Source: Sulfurovum sp.
Lineage (GTDB): Bacteria > Campylobacterota > Campylobacteria > Campylobacterales > Sulfurovaceae
Assembly: GCA_027082955.1 (NCBI GenBank)
Contig: JALWTA010000002.1
Span: 1 to 32,490 of the forward strand
DNA: 32,490 nt
Direction: 5' to 3'
In this document: one piece after another, positions 2,933-32,490 of the stretch
Layout of the letters: each line of letters begins with the position of its first letter
Position numbering within the stretch: the first letter of the stretch is position 1
Position numbers and translations under genes: made by a program
The notes under the pieces: model-generated
Told to the model about the DNA's origin: nothing
Seen by the model: the letters and a program-made list of their open reading frames with translations, nothing else
Database searches by the model: none

Positions 2933-4120
2933 TTAACACTCCTTATTATTTTTTTTGTATTTGAAGCTTTCAATCTTCACCGGCATCCCCGTTTTTGATG
3001 CATTCTCAAGCGACAGTTCGTTGTCTTGCATCATGCCAAACGTGTTAAATGCCTGATGTCTGTCATCTGTCAGATAATAGGTTGCAGGTTGATTAAAAAG
3101 AAGGTCTATGACACTATCCATATAATCAATATCTTCTGTGTCAAACATCGCTTTTGCTGTATAGATCTTCACATAGTCGTCTCCTCCATCTTCGATGTCA
3201 CCCCATTTATCTCTTTTGGGTGGACGCAGGGATATTCTTCTGGATGACAATCCTCTCATTGTGCACCCTATTTCTCTTTTTTCTCCCGCGGTTACAGATG
3301 CTAATTCTGCGAGAAGAACCCCTTTATATGGTTTTGGTTCTATGGTGATACGAACCTGTTGATACTCTTTTTTTATGAGAGGAATTTGTGCGCTCCTCTC
3401 CGTATCGCAAGATACAAACCTGAGCCATGAGGCAAAATCGTGTATCATTGAGGTATCAACAAGGCTTCTCTGGTATGTTCCAATGTCGGTGCCATCGACA
3501 GTAACTCCCCCTACACTTCCAAACAGCACCCACGAGGAAAAATCACTAATACTTGCAGGATCTGTGTGTGGGACGATGTTTGTTTGAATCACATTCCCGC
3601 TTTCGTCAAGCTGCTCTACTTTTAAAAAAGTTCCATACAGTCCAAAAAGGCTTAGGGTGTCACATCGCTGAAATGCAAGTGTCATTATGAGGTGTTCCCC
3701 TATTTTTTTGGTCGCTGTTGTAAAGTAATAATCAAGGCATGCATGTGCATTGTCTTTGCCGAGCGACGACCATTTGCTGTTATGCGAGAGTGGAGATGTG
3801 TCATTGTTTATTTCCTGCGACAGATATCTGTTACCCTTAAGCACAACGGTTGCATTCTCCGGATACACCCTTCCCGCTTCATATTCAAGATATCCGATTG
3901 CCCTCCATGCCGATGTGTCTTCTACAGGATCTGATATGTTTTGGTCTATAATACTTTGAAATATGACACCAACATAGCTGCTTGGATCTCCTGATGTACG
4001 TTCCTTCACATAAACAATGCTGTTTTTTGCATATGTTGTACCAGACTGATACTCTGTATCAGATGTGACATATGCATTCGAAGAAACAAGTGTGATTGGT
4101 TTTGCAGGAATAGCTATCAT
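2933..4120 (-). CDS. Tail tip/baseplate protein with carbohydrate-binding-like repeats
   Basis: This 395-residue protein overlaps the end of the tape-measure gene by four bases (ATGA). Two similar blocks near the N-terminus (about residues 22-70 and 74-118) have the Y..G..Y..N..V......Y.......S..W pattern of chitin-binding CBM5/12-like modules, which phages use at tail tips to touch surface sugars. The rest is unassigned and ends with a Lys-rich tail. It is the only gene between tape measure and fibre, so it probably takes the place of the usual distal-tail and hub proteins. That role is inference from position. Confidence 0.6.
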   Translation of the reverse strand: MIAIPAKPITLVSSNAYVTSDTEYQSGTTYAKNSIVYVKERTSGDPSSYVGVIFQSIIDQNISDPVEDTSAWRAIGYLEYEAGRVYPENATVVLKGNRYLSQEINNDTSPLSHNSKWSSLGKDNAHACLDYYFTTATKKIGEHLIMTLAFQRCDTLSLFGLYGTFLKVEQLDESGNVIQTNIVPHTDPASISDFSSWVLFGSVGGVTVDGTDIGTYQRSLVDTSMIHDFASWLRFVSCDTERSAQIPLIKKEYQQVRITIEPKPYKGVLLAELASVTAGEKREIGCTMRGLSSRRISLRPPKRDKWGDIEDGGDDYVKIYTAKAMFDTEDIDYMDSVIDLLFNQPATYYLTDDRHQAFNTFGMMQDNELSLENASKTGMPVKIESFKYKKNNKEC

Positions 4121-26091: not shown

Positions 26092-26659
26092 GTTCACTCC
26101 TTTCCAACGCATACACAGGCACACCGCCCTCTTTCCCTGTCTCAATGACGCGCCCCTCCTGCTGCATCTTCATCAGCACAAAGGCAAAACGCCCGGGCGA
26201 TATCCCCGATCGCTCATTGAGTACAAGCAGTGTCAACCCCTCCGGCTCTGACGCAAGCAGCTGCTCTATGCGCCCCATGTCATACGCCACAGGATCGATC
26301 TTGCGCATTGGGCTTGGTTTGGTCACTGTCACGGGAAGCTTCATGGCGCCGTCTTTAAGTTGCAGCTTCATCTCATTGCGGTCAAAGAGCCTCCGCTGCT
26401 TCTCTATCCACACAGGGCACAAAATGCCGGTGTTCTTCACCAGACCGTAGCTTCGCTCTGTAAACCGGCGCGGTACCTTTCCTCCGATCTTCCGCGCACG
26501 GATGTACCCCGCACGCTCCAACTGCCCGAAGTACTTTCTCAGACTCTCTGTCCCCATATCTGTCAGCGGCAGCAGGTCTTCTACTTTGAAAATGCGGTTG
26601 CGACGCATATACTCCCACACATACTGCCGCTCACTCTTTTTGCGCTTAAATCGATTCAT
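26081..26659 (-). CDS. Winged-helix DNA-binding protein
   Basis: This 192-residue protein has an N-terminal winged helix (RQYVWEYMRRNRIFKVEDLL, then TDMGTESLRKYFGQLERAGY and IRARKIGGKVPRRF). A second one lies near the C-terminus (RIEQLLASEPEGLTLLVLNE ... GRFAFVLMKMQQEGRVIETG). It overlaps the end of muB. It may be an accessory early regulator. Confidence 0.7.
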   Translation of the reverse strand: MNRFKRKKSERQYVWEYMRRNRIFKVEDLLPLTDMGTESLRKYFGQLERAGYIRARKIGGKVPRRFTERSYGLVKNTGILCPVWIEKQRRLFDRNEMKLQLKDGAMKLPVTVTKPSPMRKIDPVAYDMGRIEQLLASEPEGLTLLVLNERSGISPGRFAFVLMKMQQEGRVIETGKEGGVPVYALERSEHAG

Positions 26660-27386
26660 GCCGTTTCTTCTCCACGTTGCTGAGCTTGTAGGTCTTCATG
26701 TCCACCTCATAGATGCCGTTTGTCTCACACCAAAGCTCCAGCTGCTTGAGCAGCACTTTTATCGCTCTGATACTTTTGAATTTTCCGTGCAGGTACGTCC
26801 GCAGATCCTCTTTGATCACGATCGGCTCAAACCGATCCCCCTCCCCGATACCGCACAGGTTGATGAACTGGTCTATGTCGTCTTTGGGCGTATCGGTAAA
26901 GTATGTCTTTTTCACGATCCTGTCATAAAAGTGCCTGTGCCGCTGCAGCCGTGCGTCACACTGCCCCATGCCCACAAGCAGCAGCGGTACCTGTGCCTGG
27001 TCGTGCAGATCGCGAAAACTCTCCAGTATCCCTATCTTGCCTCCTACCAGTGCCCTGTCTATCTCATCGACGATGAGTGGCCGCGGGTTTTCTATGAGAC
27101 TCTCGATGATCCGCTGCACCACCTCCGCTGTTGACCCTTTGGTGTGCACGCCCAGTGCCTCCGCCACCGCTGTCATCGCAGACGCGGGCGTCCAGCTCTC
27201 CAGCACACGCACCAAGACCCCGTCAAACTCTTTGGTCAGCCGCTCCAGTGCCGTGGTTTTGCCCACACCGGGGTTCCCATACCCAAGACCGATGCGCTCC
27301 GGGTTCCCCTCCATGTCCACCAGGGTTGACAACAGCTCGAACATTGCTGTATAATTCTTCGTCTTCACAAACGCACGTTTACTCAT
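26646..27386 (-). CDS. MuB-like transposition target-selector ATPase
   Basis: This 246-residue AAA+ ATPase has Walker A GNPGVGKT (37-44), Walker B PLIVDEID (103-110), sensor-1-like PLLLVGMG and an arginine-rich HRHFYDRIVKK. It is shorter than Mu B (312) and lacks the long N-terminal part. It should bind target DNA as filaments and stimulate the transposase. It follows muA after a 149-base gap with two hairpins. Confidence 0.9.
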   Translation of the reverse strand: MSKRAFVKTKNYTAMFELLSTLVDMEGNPERIGLGYGNPGVGKTTALERLTKEFDGVLVRVLESWTPASAMTAVAEALGVHTKGSTAEVVQRIIESLIENPRPLIVDEIDRALVGGKIGILESFRDLHDQAQVPLLLVGMGQCDARLQRHRHFYDRIVKKTYFTDTPKDDIDQFINLCGIGEGDRFEPIVIKEDLRTYLHGKFKSIRAIKVLLKQLELWCETNGIYEVDMKTYKLSNVEKKRHESI

Positions 27387-27464: not shown

Positions 27465-27536
27465 TCACAAATCACTCGCGATCATATATATGGCGATGAT
27501 TAAAAACAGATATGCTATATCTTCAATATGCTCCAT
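27465..27536 (-). CDS. Possible 23-residue membrane peptide after muA
   Basis: The ATG at 27536 overlaps the muA stop (TGATG) and gives MEHIEDIAYLFLIIAIYMIA followed by three residues, a single hydrophobic helix. It has no ribosome site of its own but could be translated by coupling. Its shortness means it may not be real. Confidence 0.3.
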   Translation of the reverse strand: MEHIEDIAYLFLIIAIYMIASDL

Positions 27537-29548
27537 CACCCAGCCTTTCTCTTCTCATACTCCTCGACAGCCATCTGCCAAAGCCCCTCATGTTTTTCTG
27601 CCAGCCGCTCTGTGCTCTCATCGACCATATCGTTCTCCAGATCCCACGCAAACCGCTCGCTCACGCTACCAAAGATCGGTCTGCCGTTGATGGTCACACT
27701 CTCTTTGCTCTCGTCTGTAACCTCCTGCTGCTCTTCTGGCTCCAGTGCGCTCTCTTCGGCAAGCGATGAGGCGACATTGCCAATGAGCTCGCTCTTCATC
27801 TCCACGCCGACGGTCAGCTCCTCCGCCTGTGTCGCCACATCTTCCACCAGCAGCCGGTACCGCTCAGGTGCCTCTCTGCGCAGTTCGTTGAGTTCTCTGA
27901 TGATCTTCTCGCTCTTTTTGTCAAAGAACCGGCTCGCCATGTACTCCGCCCTGCTCTTGCCGATGTGTTCCGCACTCTCGGCACGGCACAGGAAGTTCAT
28001 CTCAAGGTCATAGATGTACAGATACCCAAGTTCATCATCACTCAGCATCCACACACTCTCTCCAACCCTGTCATAAAAGAGGTCATGCCAGTAGCTGATC
28101 TTCTTCCACGTCACACCCTTTTTGGTGATCCGCTTCTTCTCACTCAGCCCTACCAGCACATCAAGCACACGCGTATCGCTGATGGTACGCACCGGAATGG
28201 CACACTCGCTCCACCGCTCTATCGGCGTCTGACGTATGCCTCTGTGGAACTTCTGCTCATACCGCTTGATCCACCGGTCTATGTACAGCTCCAGCTCATC
28301 GCGCGTCAGCGTCGTTGGGATGTACAGGTCAAGCTCTTTCTGCTTGCGTGCCAGCTTCTTCGCTGCTGCGTTGCCCACTCTGAGCACCTCTTTGGCACGT
28401 TTCCGTGCCTCCAGCTTCTTCTCGTAGGTCGCACGGTCATCGATGCGTTTTCGCTCTTCGACATCATGCCCCACATACCCGGGCAGCTCCTCGAACAGAT
28501 CCCGCGTCAGCGTCCCGAAAAACCGCTCTATGTGCGGCTTTTGCCATCCGCTGTAGGGTGCGGTGAACTGCTGCTCTATCTTCAGACGCGCACAGGTGTA
28601 CTCAAACGCAAGGCTCTTGTACTCCCGCCCGTTGTCCAGCCGCACCTTCTCTGGCACGCCAAGCTTCTGTATCCCTTTTTTGAACACTTTGGCAAGCGCT
28701 GAACTGTTCGCTGTCGGTGTCACCACCACGATCACCCGCCGGCTGTACACATCTATGGCAGCACTCAGCTGGTACCGCACCCCGTCTGCACACATCACAT
28801 CCGCAGGCGTACCGTCCATCTCCCAGATGGCGTTGTTGTACGGTGCGCTCTCACTGGCGCTCCCCGGTGCCGGACGCAGTTTGTTGTTCGCCTCCTGCGG
28901 ACTGCGTGCCAGCGTGGTTTCGAGGATGTTCTCCTCCTTGTACCGCTTGATCATCCGCGACACCGTCGCATAGCTCAGGCACCCTTTGCCAAACTCCTCC
29001 TCAAGGTACATGTGTATCTTCGTCAGACTTCTGTCAGGGTTCTCCAGAAACAGCCGCGCCACAAACGCATACTGCTCATCCGTATAGCTGCGGTTGCTGC
29101 TGTTCTTGCCCCGCAGATCAAGCAGATGCTCCAGCGCCACCTCGCCGTTCTCTTCACACTTTCTTACGATGTCAAGCCAGCGAAACAGCTTCCCTTTGCT
29201 CGGCTTGATCTCCCGGTACTTGTACTCCACCCGCTCCAAAAACTTCTTCCAGCTCTCGCCGCTTGGACGGTTGCGGTACAGCCGCACCAGTGCCAGCCGC
29301 TTGCTTGCAAGACGCTGCTGCTCCTCACTTGCACGCCGCCATGCCGCGCTCAGTTCCGTATCGCTGGTATCGACCACCTCGGCAAAGATCTCTTCGTACT
29401 GATAGTTCCCAGAGATCTTCTCAAACTTGAAATAGCGATCATTCAACTTGATGCTGTCTCTTCCTGCTTCCGTAGCCTCTTTTGTCTTTCTTCTTATCTG
29501 CTTATAGTTTATGTTTAGGATTGTTGCCAGATCATTAGTTGTTATCAT
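27536..29548 (-). CDS. MuA-like DDE transposase
   Basis: This 670-residue protein is close in size to Mu A (663). It has an N-terminal helix-turn-helix (TTNDLATILNINYKQIRRKT), middle DNA-binding helices, and a catalytic rve-type domain with Asp245 (IWEMDGTP), Asp305 (VRLDNG) and Glu341 (PHIERFFG). A 35-residue spacing between the second Asp and Glu gives DD35E, shorter than the 55 of Mu A and like TnsB-type enzymes. The C-terminal basic part would carry the MuB contact. It cuts and joins phage ends for integration and replication. The start overlaps the Ner-like gene by 14 bases. Confidence 0.95.
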   Translation of the reverse strand: MITTNDLATILNINYKQIRRKTKEATEAGRDSIKLNDRYFKFEKISGNYQYEEIFAEVVDTSDTELSAAWRRASEEQQRLASKRLALVRLYRNRPSGESWKKFLERVEYKYREIKPSKGKLFRWLDIVRKCEENGEVALEHLLDLRGKNSSNRSYTDEQYAFVARLFLENPDRSLTKIHMYLEEEFGKGCLSYATVSRMIKRYKEENILETTLARSPQEANNKLRPAPGSASESAPYNNAIWEMDGTPADVMCADGVRYQLSAAIDVYSRRVIVVVTPTANSSALAKVFKKGIQKLGVPEKVRLDNGREYKSLAFEYTCARLKIEQQFTAPYSGWQKPHIERFFGTLTRDLFEELPGYVGHDVEERKRIDDRATYEKKLEARKRAKEVLRVGNAAAKKLARKQKELDLYIPTTLTRDELELYIDRWIKRYEQKFHRGIRQTPIERWSECAIPVRTISDTRVLDVLVGLSEKKRITKKGVTWKKISYWHDLFYDRVGESVWMLSDDELGYLYIYDLEMNFLCRAESAEHIGKSRAEYMASRFFDKKSEKIIRELNELRREAPERYRLLVEDVATQAEELTVGVEMKSELIGNVASSLAEESALEPEEQQEVTDESKESVTINGRPIFGSVSERFAWDLENDMVDESTERLAEKHEGLWQMAVEEYEKRKAG

Positions 29549-29777
29549 CTTTCACCTCCCACGGCAGCGCACCGATCCACACACCGTCTTTTTTCAGCTG
29601 TGCGTACACCTTTCTGGTCTCTCCGCGCTGGGTTCTGCGTGTCCCTGCCGTATCTTCTCTCTCCGAGAGCACATTGCTCAGTATCACACGGCTCAGCCCA
29701 TGCGCCCTGGCATACTTCACCACCCCGAACCCTTTTGCATCAAACCGCTCACGCAGCGTTTTTCCTCTTACTTTCAC
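29535..29777 (-). CDS. Ner-like / BcepMu gp16-family HTH regulator
   Basis: The product has 80 residues from GTG 29777, which follows AGGAGG; the upstream ATG at 29918 would read through the promoter region. The pattern RERFDAKGFGVVKYARAHGL followed by SRVILSNVLSERED is a Ner/BcepMu-gp16-type helix-turn-helix, and the end ...KVYAQLKKDGVWIGALPWEV is typical of the latter family. It sits directly upstream of muA and should damp early transcription, probably through the palindrome at 29833-29860. Confidence 0.75.
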   Translation of the reverse strand: MKVRGKTLRERFDAKGFGVVKYARAHGLSRVILSNVLSEREDTAGTRRTQRGETRKVYAQLKKDGVWIGALPWEVKDDNN

Positions 29778-29822
29778 AAAACCTCCTTTTATCACAAATC
29801 CACACCGATGACCCCTCTGTGC

Positions 29823-29860
29823 TATAATGCAACATGGCTGCCACACACAAGTCAGCCATG
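29823..29860. promoter_or_regulatory. Divergent promoter with palindromic operator
   Basis: TATAAT (29823-29828) reads as ATTATA on the other strand, so it can serve as -10 in both directions: plus toward the 29904 gene and minus toward ner-muA (with TTGTGT about 18 bases away). An 8-bp perfect inverted repeat CATGGCTG/CAGCCATG (29833-29840 and 29853-29860) lies at the plus-strand start point and in the minus-strand spacer. It is a likely Ner or repressor site. Confidence 0.5.
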
Positions 29861-29903
29861 ACACCAAAACACAAACCCACCAAAGCACAAAGGAGCCACC
29901 GCT

Positions 29904-30179
29904 ATGGATGAAAGACAATTAACACTCAAAGAACTTCAGGAAGAACTCTACCTCTGTCACAGCAGAGAAAGAGTCCTTTATGAAGAAATAGAAAACCTCT
30001 ACACCAAATACTACGCATTGCACGAACTTCTTTTAAAACAAAGTCCTCACACCACACAGCAGGACATAAACGCTCTACAGGAGGAGAAAGAGGACAAAGA
30101 AGAAGAGTTGTACGCACGTACACGCAAAGGTAAAATCTTTGAAGACCTATACGACCAAAGACCCATGCGGCTTGGGTAA
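29904..30179 (+). CDS. Cassette 1 plus-strand coiled-coil protein
   Basis: This 91-residue, charged, helical protein (MDERQLTLKELQEELYLCHS...) starts after AAAGGAGCCACCGCT. It shares the EIENLYTK motif and the leader sequence AAAGGAGCCA...CTATGGA with the 30856 gene, so the two are paralogues. Its 3' end overlaps the oppositely oriented 30147 gene by 33 bases. It is transcribed against the phage early direction. Function is unknown. Confidence 0.65.
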   Translation: MDERQLTLKELQEELYLCHSRERVLYEEIENLYTKYYALHELLLKQSPHTTQQDINALQEEKEDKEEELYARTRKGKIFEDLYDQRPMRLG

Positions 30180-30443
30180 AGCAAACAACTCTTTAATGAA
30201 CCCATACTTGATCATAATGGATCTGTAAGCATGTTTTGTTGCATCATTTTCCTCTGTGCCAAATTTTGCAACATAGGCATCAAAAGAACACCCCTCTTCC
30301 TCTCGAAGGAGGGTGTCTATCTTAAAATAAGCCTCACGTTGAACACGAAGTTCCTCAGCTCTTCTACTTGCCCTTGTCGCTCTGTATAGTCTTTTCTCTC
30401 GAAGTTGTACTTCTTTGGTTTTTTTTCTTCTCAAATACTGCAT
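30147..30443 (-). CDS. Cassette 1 minus-strand GCSFDAY protein
   Basis: The product has 98 residues from ATG 30443 (MQYLRRKKTKEVQLREKRLY), after AAGGAAGG. The basic N-terminus is followed by EEEGCSFDAYVAKFGTEEND, a motif shared with the 31034 gene (17 identical bases, GCATCAAAAGAACACCC at 30277-30293 and 31164-31180). It is convergent with the plus-strand partner, with overlapping 3' ends. It lies in the early lytic direction. Function is unknown. Confidence 0.65.
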   Translation of the reverse strand: MQYLRRKKTKEVQLREKRLYRATRASRRAEELRVQREAYFKIDTLLREEEGCSFDAYVAKFGTEENDATKHAYRSIMIKYGFIKELFALPKPHGSLVV

Positions 30444-30464
30444 AACCCTTCCTTTTTTTACTTG

Positions 30465-30554
30465 GTGAAACACTTTACCCCGTTTTCACGTTTCACGCCA
30501 AACCCCCGCCACACCGCACATATAGAGCCGTGAAGCAGGTGAAACGCGTGAAAC
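30465..30554. repeat. Cluster of GTGAAAC/GTTTCAC sites
   Basis: GTGAAAC occurs at 30465-30471, 30539-30545 and 30548-30554, and its complement at 30490-30496, in a 90-base gene-free stretch. The same heptamer is at 16300-16306 and 32094-32100. It recalls the TTTCAC core of Mu end and enhancer sites, so an internal transposition enhancer or operator cluster is possible. Confidence 0.45.
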
Positions 30555-30587
30555 GCACCTTTTTGTTTCGTGGACAAATCCACACAA

Positions 30588-30657
30588 GAGCCCTCGCAGC
30601 GAAGATCGGGGGAAGGAGGAAGATCTCTGCAAAAGGAAGGAAGGCCCGCGAGGGCTC
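30588..30657. promoter_or_regulatory. Long imperfect inverted repeat with purine-rich loop
   Basis: GAGCCCTCGC (30588-30597) pairs with GCGAGGGCTC (30648-30657), and after one mismatch five more bases match outward (ACACA/TGTGT). Inside, AGATC (30603-30607) and GATCT (30622-30626) with GCAG/CTGC form a second stem. The loop is rich in GGAGG-like sequence. The rest of 30444-30855 contains no gene. Confidence 0.5.
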
Positions 30658-30797
30658 ATGTGTAGATTTTGGGTGCGTGCTGCTCTCCGGCACACACCCG
30701 TTTACAAATACCTCGACATCACTTGTTCAAAGTGTCTCCGGCGGACGCACCGGAGAGGTAAGACAAATATCACAGTGCATTCACACTGAAAGCCCAT

Positions 30798-30825
30798 TTT
30801 GTGGTAAGATATCATGTGCCACAAA
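30798..30825 (+). promoter_or_regulatory. Cassette 2 promoter with inverted repeat
   Basis: A -10-like TAAGAT (30805-30810) lies between TTTGTGG (30798-30804) and CCACAAA (30819-30825), about 46 bases before the ATG at 30856. A protein bound to the repeat would block the promoter. The -35 is weak. Confidence 0.4.
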
Positions 30826-30855
30826 CACAACATCAAAACAAAAGGAGCCATCACT

Positions 30856-31053
30856 ATGGACAACACACAACTAAAAGAGATACTCGAAACACTACGCCTG
30901 TGTACACAGGCAAACACCGGTCACCTCAGCGCACTTTACGAAAAGCTCAAAGAAAATGAGCCGGAAAACCATGGAATCTCTACCGCTTTAACCCAGCTTG
31001 CCGATCTGACAAAAGAGATAGAGAACCTCTACACTAAAATTGAAGACTTCTAG
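30856..31053 (+). CDS. Cassette 2 plus-strand coiled-coil protein
   Basis: The product has 65 residues from ATG 30856 (MDNTQLKEILETLRLCTQAN), after AAAAGGAGCCATCACT. It ends TKEIENLYTKIEDF, sharing EIENLYTK and leader sequence with the 29904 gene, and is therefore its shorter paralogue. Its 3' end overlaps the convergent 31034 gene by 20 bases. Function is unknown. Confidence 0.65.
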   Translation: MDNTQLKEILETLRLCTQANTGHLSALYEKLKENEPENHGISTALTQLADLTKEIENLYTKIEDF

Positions 31054-31264
31054 CCATCTCTCGCAGGTCTTCATTCTTTGCATATATCGCTAGCTCAGCC
31101 AATGCAAGGTGCTTAAGACCTGCTACCTTCAGATGTTTACTGTCTCGAAAACGCTCCATATACGCATCAAAAGAACACCCAAACTCCTCTTTCACCATCT
31201 CATCAAGCTCCTCTTCCATCTTCCGTTTTGCCCAGCTCACAACAGTAAGTATGTCTTTTCTCAT
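31034..31264 (-). CDS. Cassette 2 minus-strand GCSFDAY protein
   Basis: The 76-residue helical product (MRKDILTVVSWAKRKMEEEL) contains VKEEFGCSFDAYMERFRDSK, the motif shared with the 30147 gene. It is the first gene after the near-consensus early promoter at 31345-31373 and so is probably among the first lytic proteins made. It is convergent with, and overlaps, the plus-strand partner. Confidence 0.65.
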   Translation of the reverse strand: MRKDILTVVSWAKRKMEEELDEMVKEEFGCSFDAYMERFRDSKHLKVAGLKHLALAELAIYAKNEDLREMARSLQF

Positions 31265-31344: not shown

Positions 31345-31373
31345 ATTATACGACAAAATATGTCATAAGTCAA
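31345..31373 (-). promoter_or_regulatory. Main early (lytic) promoter with operator in the spacer
   Basis: On the minus strand TTGACT (31373-31368) and TATAAT (31350-31345) are exactly 17 bases apart. The palindrome GACATATTTTGTC fills the spacer (31364-31352). A bound repressor would exclude RNA polymerase. Transcription would run left through both GCSFDAY genes, ner and muA. Confidence 0.8.
31352..31364. promoter_or_regulatory. Repressor operator O1
   Basis: GACAAAATATGTC follows the pattern GACA-N3-TA(T/C)GTC seen three times around the repressor start. It lies between the -35 and -10 of the early promoter. Confidence 0.65.
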
Positions 31374-31382
31374 GAGAATAAC

Positions 31383-31395
31383 GACAAATTACGTC
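31383..31395. promoter_or_regulatory. Repressor operator O2
   Basis: GACAAATTACGTC lies 31 bases (three helical turns) from O1, between the early promoter -35 and the repressor ATG, so it could also autoregulate the repressor. Confidence 0.6.
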
Positions 31396-31409
31396 AGAAA
31401 GGTGAAAAA

Positions 31410-32033
31410 ATGGAGAATATAGGTGACAGAATATGTCGTGTCAGGAGAGATAGAAAGCTTTCACAGTCCGATATAGCCGATGCTTTAGGTATATCGACAC
31501 GTACTTATCAACGTTTTGAAAAAAATCCAGAGGAACTTGATAGAATACGTCAAGTGGCATCATTATTGGATGTTTCTTATGATTGGTTGCTTACAGGAAA
31601 AGACAACAATGATATAGCACCTATCATAGATAATTCGTTGTCTGTGTCTCTTTACAGAGGAGGAGCTGGGGAAGGAATATATAATTTTGAAAGCAGTAAA
31701 TACCTTCTTTCTCTTAATACTGATATATTCCCAGAGCTAAAAGGAAAACCAATTACTGCTATAGAGGTTGTTGGTGACTCTATGGAGCCTATTTTGAGAA
31801 AGGGGGACTATATCCTTGTTACGCCACAGGACAGAGAGCGTCGTACCGAGGATGGTATTTATGCTATACGCCTTGATGGTGCCATCAAGATCAAGGCACT
31901 GCAGTTCCAGCTTGATGGTACAATTAAGATTATCTCATATAACCACCATTACTCATCAGAGATCTATGATCCGGCTGTCTCTCAGGTCGACTTCGAGATC
32001 CTTGGAAAACACTGTCTTACTATTGCAAGATAA
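31410..32033 (+). CDS. Phage repressor, HTH plus S24 (LexA-like) domain
   Basis: This 207-residue protein has an N-terminal HTH (about 5-60: RICRVRRDRKLSQSDIADAL). It also has a C-terminal S24 autoprotease domain with Ser124 in VGDSMEP and a candidate Lys at 160 or 162 (GAIKIK), plus an Ala-Gly (86-87) cleavage candidate in RGGAGEG. This architecture implies RecA-triggered cleavage and SOS induction, unlike the classic Mu c repressor, which lacks the protease. Three GACA-N3-TAYGTC sites flank or overlap its start. It is transcribed away from the lytic genes. Confidence 0.9.
   Translation: MENIGDRICRVRRDRKLSQSDIADALGISTRTYQRFEKNPEELDRIRQVASLLDVSYDWLLTGKDNNDIAPIIDNSLSVSLYRGGAGEGIYNFESSKYLLSLNTDIFPELKGKPITAIEVVGDSMEPILRKGDYILVTPQDRERRTEDGIYAIRLDGAIKIKALQFQLDGTIKIISYNHHYSSEIYDPAVSQVDFEILGKHCLTIAR
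31425..31437. promoter_or_regulatory. Repressor operator O3, inside the repressor gene
   Basis: GACAGAATATGTC lies 42 bases from O2 (four helical turns), within codons 6-10 of the repressor. It matches O1 and O2 and may serve negative autoregulation. Confidence 0.55.
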
Positions 32034-32370
32034 TACGATTCACATTTATACTGTAAAAAATCGTGTCCCGAGGTATGTCCTTAGCTTCACGGCGTTTCAC
32101 ACGGCAAACCACTCACAAACCACGCTCTCACCGACAAAAACACCGCATCCAACCCAAAAACAGTGATGCACCGCCTCGTTTCATCTGCACTATCCCTCAC
32201 AACCGCCCAAAAACCCGACAAACAACCCCAAAAATGAACCAGTTCAAAAAAGTTCAATGAAACATAAACTGCTTCATCACCTTTTTAAAACCATTTTCAC
32301 CCCACAAACCCCCACCACACCGCAAACCACACGAAACACCCCCCATTCACTTTTTAACTGATCCCCCACA
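32034..32370. other. Prophage left end (phage orientation), non-coding
   Basis: No credible gene is seen in this 337-base stretch. The plus strand is strongly C/A-rich and G-poor, unlike the genes. It contains the end element at 32042-32064, a GTTTCAC site at 32094-32100 and ends ATCCCCCACA, the mirror of TGTG at 98. Transposase-binding sites are expected here. Confidence 0.5.
32042..32064 (-). repeat. End element, right copy (inverted)
   Basis: The reverse complement of this segment matches 126-148 at 21 of 23 positions. It begins nine bases after the repressor stop. If it is a transposase site it lies about 306 bases inside the proposed end at 32370, against about 28 inside the other end. 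Confidence 0.5.
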
Positions 32371-32389
32371 TTAGATTTCGAAGATCATG
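32371..32389 (+). repeat. 19-bp direct repeat, right border copy
   Basis: This copy is identical to 81-99. It directly follows the CACA proposed as phage terminus and runs into the 14-bp tandem array. Together with the left copy it marks the prophage borders. Confidence 0.8.
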
Positions 32390-32490
32390 AAACTCCAAAG
32401 ATGAAACTCCAAAGATGAAACTCCAAAGATGAAACTCCAAAGATGAAACTCCAAAGATGAAACTCCAAAGATGAAACTCCAAAGATGAAA
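32387..32490 (+). repeat. 14-bp tandem repeat array running off the window
   Basis: ATGAAACTCCAAAG is present in seven perfect consecutive copies (32387-32484) plus six bases of an eighth. The unit is not a multiple of three and any frame through it meets TGA, so it cannot be part of a long coding sequence in this copy number. It is either a host minisatellite or an assembly end effect. Confidence 0.9.

Follow-up and report, generated by a model that had tools for sequence, protein, structure and literature searches.

A promoter-leader-hairpin socket in the immunity region of Mu-like prophages as a candidate antisense switch for exchangeable lysogeny genes

Between the repressor and the ner-like gene of a Mu-like prophage in Sulfurovum lie two pairs of small convergent genes whose 3' ends overlap and whose plus-strand members run antisense to the lytic transcript. 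The question raised by this arrangement is which unit has been conserved and doubled there, and what it may do for the phage. The stretch analysed (32,490 nt, hereafter the window) is an almost complete Mu-like prophage, with a DDE transposase A, an AAA+ ATPase B, a Ner-like regulator and a divergent repressor in Mu order, and with TG...CA ends (Table 1). The ner-like gene also matches TIGR04111 at E 3.5e-6, under that model's cut-off. The right end of the prophage is TGTAAGTAATC at position 100, and the left end, at 32370, is TGTGGGGGATCAGTTAAAAAG, i.e. ...CCCCCACA, which is common to the related prophage G034. Matches to Helicobacter/Campylobacter phages point to Campylobacterota as the host phylum.

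Several features of the prophage ends deserve mention in their own right. A 19-bp exact direct repeat, TTAGATTTCGAAGATCATG, stands directly outside both TG...CA ends (81-99 and 32371-32389) and much exceeds the 5-bp duplication of Mu. On the host side of the left junction, at the contig end, a 14-bp tandem repeat (ATGAAACTCCAAAG) occurs in 7.4 copies that are 100% identical (32387-32490). Repeats of the GTTTCAC type, which read GTTTTAC in G034/L013, occupy the phage left end (32090-32360) and recur about 1.8 kb further in, next to the middle hairpin (30470-30560); they are candidate transposase-binding sites and a candidate internal enhancer (IAS). Near the right end, the minus strand at 187-1287 encodes a 366-aa putative lipoprotein with a by-eye likeness to nucleoside hydrolases, a candidate lysogenic-conversion gene.

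Table 1. Positions of the prophage genes and of the proposed control elements in the window.
Feature	Position	Strand	Remarks
Transposition ATPase B	26646..27386	-	phrog_296 3e-32
Mu-type transposase A	27536..29548	-	phrog_310 5e-74; rve + Mu-transpos_C
ner-like gene, BcepMu gp16-type HTH	29535..29783	-	phrog_925 E 1.2e-4
Slot-1 hairpin on early transcript	29798..29909	-	R2 77.9 bits (training sequence); covariation in A7
Slot-1 plus promoter	29799..29828	+	TATAAT preceded by TG; conserved AGCCC-type upstream arm; by consensus match and leader alignment
A1, slot-1 plus gene	29904..30179	+	91 aa, acidic, predicted helical hairpin; putative lysogeny-side cargo
B1, slot-1 minus gene of early operon	30147..30443	-	98 aa, basic, RBS aaggaaggg; homologue of B2
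Middle hairpin between slots	30576..30669	-	Arms of 22 nt separated by 50 nt; counterpart at this position in L054 and L013
Slot-2 hairpin on early transcript	30779..30861	-	R2 72.6 bits (training sequence); over A2 promoter, RBS and start
Slot-2 plus promoter-like site	30786..30815	+	TATCAT; by consensus match and leader alignment
A2, slot-2 plus gene	30856..31053	+	65 aa, acidic, coiled-coil-like; leader common with A1
B2, slot-2 minus gene	31034..31264	-	76 aa; first gene downstream of early promoter
Early (lytic) promoter	31345..31373	-	Reads B2, B1, ner, transposase
Three dyads GACA-N5-YGTC	31352-31364, 31383-31395, 31425-31437		Span 31352..31437
Repressor, HTH + peptidase S24	31410..32033	+	PF00717 E 6e-18; HTH_19 1e-7; phrog_4 2e-35

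The four open reading frames lie where the earlier note had placed them, with 3' overlaps of 33 nt (A1/B1) and 20 nt (A2/B2), and the likenesses that it saw between the cassettes hold. The leaders (29889 and 30841) are identical at 27 of 34 nt, the EIENLYTK patches of the plus genes (29983 and 31013) at 23 of 26, and the GCSFDAY patches of the minus genes (30273 and 31160) at 26 of 31. Within the window the leader pattern AAGGAGCCAYCRCTATGGA occurs at the two leader sites only, and it has 0 occurrences in shuffles. Similarity between the cassettes is above background, the DNA score being 42 against a best of 31 among 500 dinucleotide shuffles. B1 and B2 can firmly be taken as homologous (the protein score is 72, where shuffles average 27.3 and 0 of 2000 equal it; E 8e-8 by BLASTP). 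The A1/A2 protein score was reached by 31 of 2000 shuffles, and their apparent coding similarity past the leader is weak; the case for their homology draws mainly on the leader and one 26-bp patch. The AlphaFold model of A1 (pLDDT 86.8) has helices at 3-46 and 52-84, and Pfam, PHROGs, NCBIfam and PADLOC gave no reliable match to the protein. The predicted structure of B1 is of low confidence.

Neither protein family could be followed beyond the prophage. Among 78 genomes of the genus, its own included, no homologue of A or of B was found besides the window itself, and B alignment scans found none in 299 genomes sampled from the order and none in the viral collection. Weak B matches within the genus (E 0.001 to 0.1) fell in long open frames, mostly of about 820 aa, and look like chance. 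A DNA search of the genus with the middle region of the window likewise returned no relative.

The architecture, on the other hand, recurs. Relatives were found by a leader search, which led to the IMG/VR contig L054, and by transposase searches; a broad leader pattern run over the viral and genome collections gave matches mostly due to chance, L054 alone being real. This contig is a Mu-like phage with the same gene order and has two slots with different cargo. In its slot 1 a KTSC-domain protein (E 7.6e-20) is encoded convergent to a 148-aa HTH protein, and its slot 2 holds another unrelated convergent pair. One convergent pair each lies between ner and repressor in L240, L014, L242, L246, L251 and L245, the repressor of L240 being beyond the contig end. 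The survey thus comprises 10 convergent pairs in 8 Mu-like prophages, the window included, with a common leader and hairpin and with mostly unrelated cargo. The earlier note had staked its reading on the co-occurrence of the two protein families in other genomes: at the level of families this is not borne out, A and B being found, among the genomes searched, only in the window, whereas the architecture is kept. A convergent plus/minus pair is present also in G448/L283 and in the integrase phage G278/L284. All these phages show the same order and convergent overlap, the plus gene converging on a small minus gene of the early operon, between repressor and ner where ner exists. Other relatives have a decayed slot with a 30-codon ORF (L013), a related membrane protein without a minus partner (L217, L219 and L247) or no cargo (L241/L218 and L244).

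Cargo types include a KTSC-domain protein, coiled coils and HTH proteins. In an all-against-all BLAST, relatedness besides A1/A2 and B1/B2 was confined to the plus genes of L014/L246 and to the membrane proteins. The small plus products are mostly acidic (pI 4.6-5.2), the KTSC protein being the exception, and the minus products are mostly basic with the exception of B2; most minus genes have a good RBS. Comparison of the cargo with PADLOC, NCBIfam, Pfam and PHROGs yielded nothing reliable except the KTSC domain, an HTH/excisionase-like protein and phrog_19900 (the L217 membrane protein), and the PADLOC models for known defence systems gave nothing better than E 0.007. At L283 487-826, the hairpin socket of G448 drives a 90-aa gene (MKTYLVTYDLNAPGQ...) with a by-eye likeness to small Cas2-like proteins, whose product has no match in Pfam or NCBIfam.

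Because the architecture recurs with mostly unrelated cargo while the A and B families do not, the conserved and duplicated unit is, as judged from these comparisons, a promoter-leader-hairpin socket and not primarily a gene pair. The earlier view that an ancestral convergent pair had been duplicated is thereby amended: a cassette was doubled between repressor and ner, and its lasting part appears to be the socket.

Alignment of the plus-gene starts defines a common element made of an AGCCC-type arm, a TATNAT-like -10 box (preceded by TG in many cases), a leader, an RBS (AAGGAGCC or AAGGACTTA) and the ATG. The leaders can be aligned across the Mu-like set; they are A/C-rich, 27-37 nt long and mostly of MFE 0 to -5, slot 1 of the window being the exception with 69 nt and an MFE of -14.3. 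The upstream arm can pair with the RBS arm, which gives a minus-strand hairpin of about 20 bp over the plus promoter, RBS and start codon. In slot 1 the 5' arm is complementary to the RBS and start codon of A1, and the 3' arm is supplied by sequence upstream of the -10 box of A1. Folding is asymmetric between the strands: z is -5.08 on the minus strand against -2.57 on the plus strand for slot 1, -2.21 against -0.23 for slot 2, and -2.2 to -6.2 against -0.2 to -2.6 over 14 elements.

The two arms change together: GGCTCCTT/AAGGAGCC in G034, GTCTCCTT/AAGGAGAC in G173, AAGGGCTTAA/TTAAGTCCTT in a group to which we give the label 'Arcobacter type', and AAGTGTCCTT/AAGGACACTT in G330, where they are also given as AAGTGTCC/GGACACTT. 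Between G034 and G173, for example, GGCTCC/GGAGCC stands against GTCTCC/GGAGAC. RNAalifold finds 19 pairs in the window-type set A7, 4 of them changed on both sides, and 14 pairs in the other set A6, with 3 so changed; some of the 5' arm is constrained in any case by the RBS (CCTT/AAGG). Transition mismatches read on the minus strand comprise 71 G.T and 10 A.C, where arm composition predicts 52.8 of 81 to be G.T (the raw G.U count was 74:11, and base composition was then corrected for). The P value of this skew, 3.5e-6, comes from sequences related by descent, so that neither covariation nor mismatches are independent counts. An invertible promoter was considered and rejected since the arms reach almost to the loop (3-18 nt in most), so that nothing remains between them that could be inverted.

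Covariance models R1 and R2 were built from two disjoint phage sets. Trained on 6 window-type hairpins only, R2 matched L251 (3.6e-6), L246 (1e-5), L281 (1e-8) and L283 (2e-7) outside its training set; it finds the Arcobacter-type hairpins together with L281, L283 and L284, best on the early-transcript strand. In reverse, R1 finds L054, L240 and L247, weakly. Within the window, the two slots are the only strong R2 matches, both of them training sequences. Over 399 genomes, R1 had matches in 11, namely the already-known Mu-like prophages, G330, G448, G278 (an integrase phage with a tyrosine integrase and an S24 repressor) and one host promoter in G273. The last lies at L282 3479-3541, over the promoter and start of a host response-regulator gene that is flgR-like by eye, and is probably due to chance, though the host may perhaps use this leader too. 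Rfam 15 gave no family match above the gathering score; a mir-11 match at E 0.046 was put down to chance.

These data bear on two other readings of the locus. Ordinary morons with a promoter of their own, placed in a plastic region, would resemble the slots in several respects, convergence and hairpin then being by-products of a conserved RBS. The plus genes have their own promoter (by consensus only), vary between relatives with mostly unrelated cargo and are transcribed against the lytic genes, and fixed left-arm accessory loci or plasticity regions with exchangeable small ORFs of 34-100 codons are typical of Mu-like phages of Pseudomonas aeruginosa (PMC4378225). Those loci are not known to have a common promoter-leader-hairpin socket, whereas the window group shares one across slots and phages. 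A conserved RBS accounts for one arm only, yet the partner arm upstream of the -10 box covaries in three further sequence types (L240, L281 and L283), and we regard the moron reading as improbable. Still less probable is action of the inverted repeat as DNA, either as two operator sites for a phage regulator, one on each side of the plus promoter, or as an aba-like self-immunity element at the start of a defence gene. The arms do flank the -10 box, and in the BstA system of prophage BTP1 a DNA-based element that overlaps the bstA start neutralises a prophage-expressed gene at the lytic switch (PMC8585504). However, aba acts on protein and consists of terminal direct CCCGCC repeats, not of a dyad (PMC8585504), and no relation to BstA was seen, PADLOC and Pfam giving no match. 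A fixed protein site, moreover, would not predict arms that change together between prophages of near-identical ner (L013 and L240). Also against the DNA reading, mismatches lean to G.T on a single strand.

The main rival to an antisense switch is action in cis, in which the hairpin would serve the early transcript as an RNase III or processing site, a 5' stabiliser or an attenuator before ner and transposase, with the plus genes merely reusing the hairpin DNA as a promoter. This reading seems rather unlikely to us, but it may hold, since phages without cargo keep the hairpin, with compensated changes. The ner-proximal hairpin persists in L241/L218, which have neither plus promoter nor ORF, and in L244, where the slot is decayed; L241 and L217 differ by compensated arm changes, and the G.U polarity concerns the minus RNA. 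Against a cis role, ner is about 1 kb downstream of the slot-2 hairpins, and every convergent slot, including that of the integrase phage L284, has its hairpin placed exactly over plus promoter, RBS and start codon.

Two further hairpins lie between the slots. The middle hairpin (folding z -5.75 minus, -3.30 plus) adjoins the transposase-binding-like repeats and has compensated changes in L054, where CACA/TGTG becomes CAGA/TCTG, and in L013; its 5' part is also seen in L240, where the contig ends. R1 gives it only 13.6 bits, and with no clear match to the slot models its relation to the slot hairpins is uncertain. Upstream of slot 2, a short hairpin (window 30735-30760; L013 about 3775-3800) has the invariant loop TGCGTCCG on the minus strand and a compensated stem (CTCCGG/CCGGAG against CATCCG/CGGATG), and a related one occurs in L054.

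The early promoter (TTGACT-17-TATAAT) fits the consensus at 11 of 12 positions, and the plus genes appear, by consensus matches and in line with the earlier note, to have promoters of their own. The three dyads are likely repressor operators. A consensus scan for a sigma70-like minus promoter adjoining a hairpin (near 29910 or 30862) found none.

On this basis we hold, with moderate confidence, that the cassettes are interchangeable lysogeny-gene slots in a Mu-like immunity region, probably silenced on induction by antisense hairpins. In the lysogen, the early promoter would presumably be repressed through the three dyads, so that the plus gene can be made: the plus promoters would be free to fire towards the repressor, and a small gene directed away from ner would be expressed by way of its RBS, its start codon and a leader that is mostly unstructured. 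On induction, the early transcript would pass through both slots and fold into a hairpin at each, presenting a 5' arm and loop complementary to the 5' end, RBS and start codon of the plus mRNA. Pairing like that of IS10 RNA-OUT, aided by transcription collision, would then turn the lysogeny-only gene off as the lytic cycle starts. Silencing by antisense or collision had been suggested before, and the arm-covarying minus-strand hairpin over each plus start makes the antisense part plausible.

Antisense shut-off is favoured because the geometry is that of IS10 RNA-OUT. In IS10, RNA-OUT pairs through its first 35 nt with the initiation region of RNA-IN, and mutations of the RNA-IN promoter alter the stability of RNA-OUT, which spans that promoter (PMC5006887). 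The sockets and the IS10/Tn10 pair alike have an antisense stem-loop that spans the sense promoter and is complementary to the initiation region, together with an unstructured sense leader. In every convergent slot, plus leader, RBS and AUG recur as their reverse complement in the 5' arm and loop; the stem-loop is stable and the sense leader unstructured (that of window slot 1 excepted). RNA-OUT, however, is transcribed from a promoter of its own as a separate RNA of 69 nt and acts against the transposase, whereas the socket hairpin is one part of a long early transcript, and its targets would be lysogeny genes. As the consensus scan found no dedicated minus promoter for a discrete short antisense RNA, we call the hairpin IS10-like and do not class it as an IS10-type member. 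We also propose, tentatively, that it is an RNA family of the order's temperate phages unrecorded in Rfam, an IS10-like switch in the lytic transcript that makes plugged-in genes lysogeny-on and induction-off.

Full complementarity of the two leaders also suits a reversed reading, in which the plus RNA made in the lysogen is itself the effector and confers immunity or superinfection exclusion by pairing with the early leader of an incoming phage. A precedent is the antisense RNA STnc6030 of prophage BTP1, which excludes superinfection (PMC7067206). We give this reading very little weight: most slots keep plus ORFs with an RBS, among them one recognised domain (KTSC), and the stretch of early RNA that would be targeted is the very one taken up by a stable stem.

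For the preferred antisense shut-off of lysogeny genes, the closest precedent is the olg1/gene 10 pair of Pseudomonas phage Fc02. There, olg1 on the lysogenic strand is antisense to the lytic gene 10, both products exclude superinfecting phages, and strand-specific RNA-seq found the two genes oppositely expressed (PMC9936078). Fc02 (transposable, B3 group) and the window share a small lysogenic-strand gene that lies upstream of the repressor and runs antisense to one of the genes in the early ner operon; in Fc02, however, the two genes overlap completely and are situated beyond ner. A1, A2 and B1 have no sequence similarity to the phage B3 counterparts of the Fc02 pair, and phage B3, taken as an outgroup, has no hairpin over the start of its olg1-like ORF. 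By analogy with Fc02, the cargo probably serves prophage-benefit functions such as superinfection exclusion.

Overlapping lysogenic and lytic genes in immunity regions and IS10-like antisense stem-loops are both already known, while the open-access literature searched yielded no reusable socket that combines a covarying hairpin with exchangeable cargo. If the proposal is true, these phages follow a plug-in rule for lysogeny genes, in which the socket and not the cargo sets the control. They would also provide a clear case in which structured antisense elements directed at lysogeny genes are part of the lytic transcript, and the role of antisense in overlapping arrangements of the Fc02 type would become testable. 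The covariance model would then be a sequence handle for prophage accessory proteins, some of them probably serving in exclusion or defence, which profile searches miss because they are ORFans.
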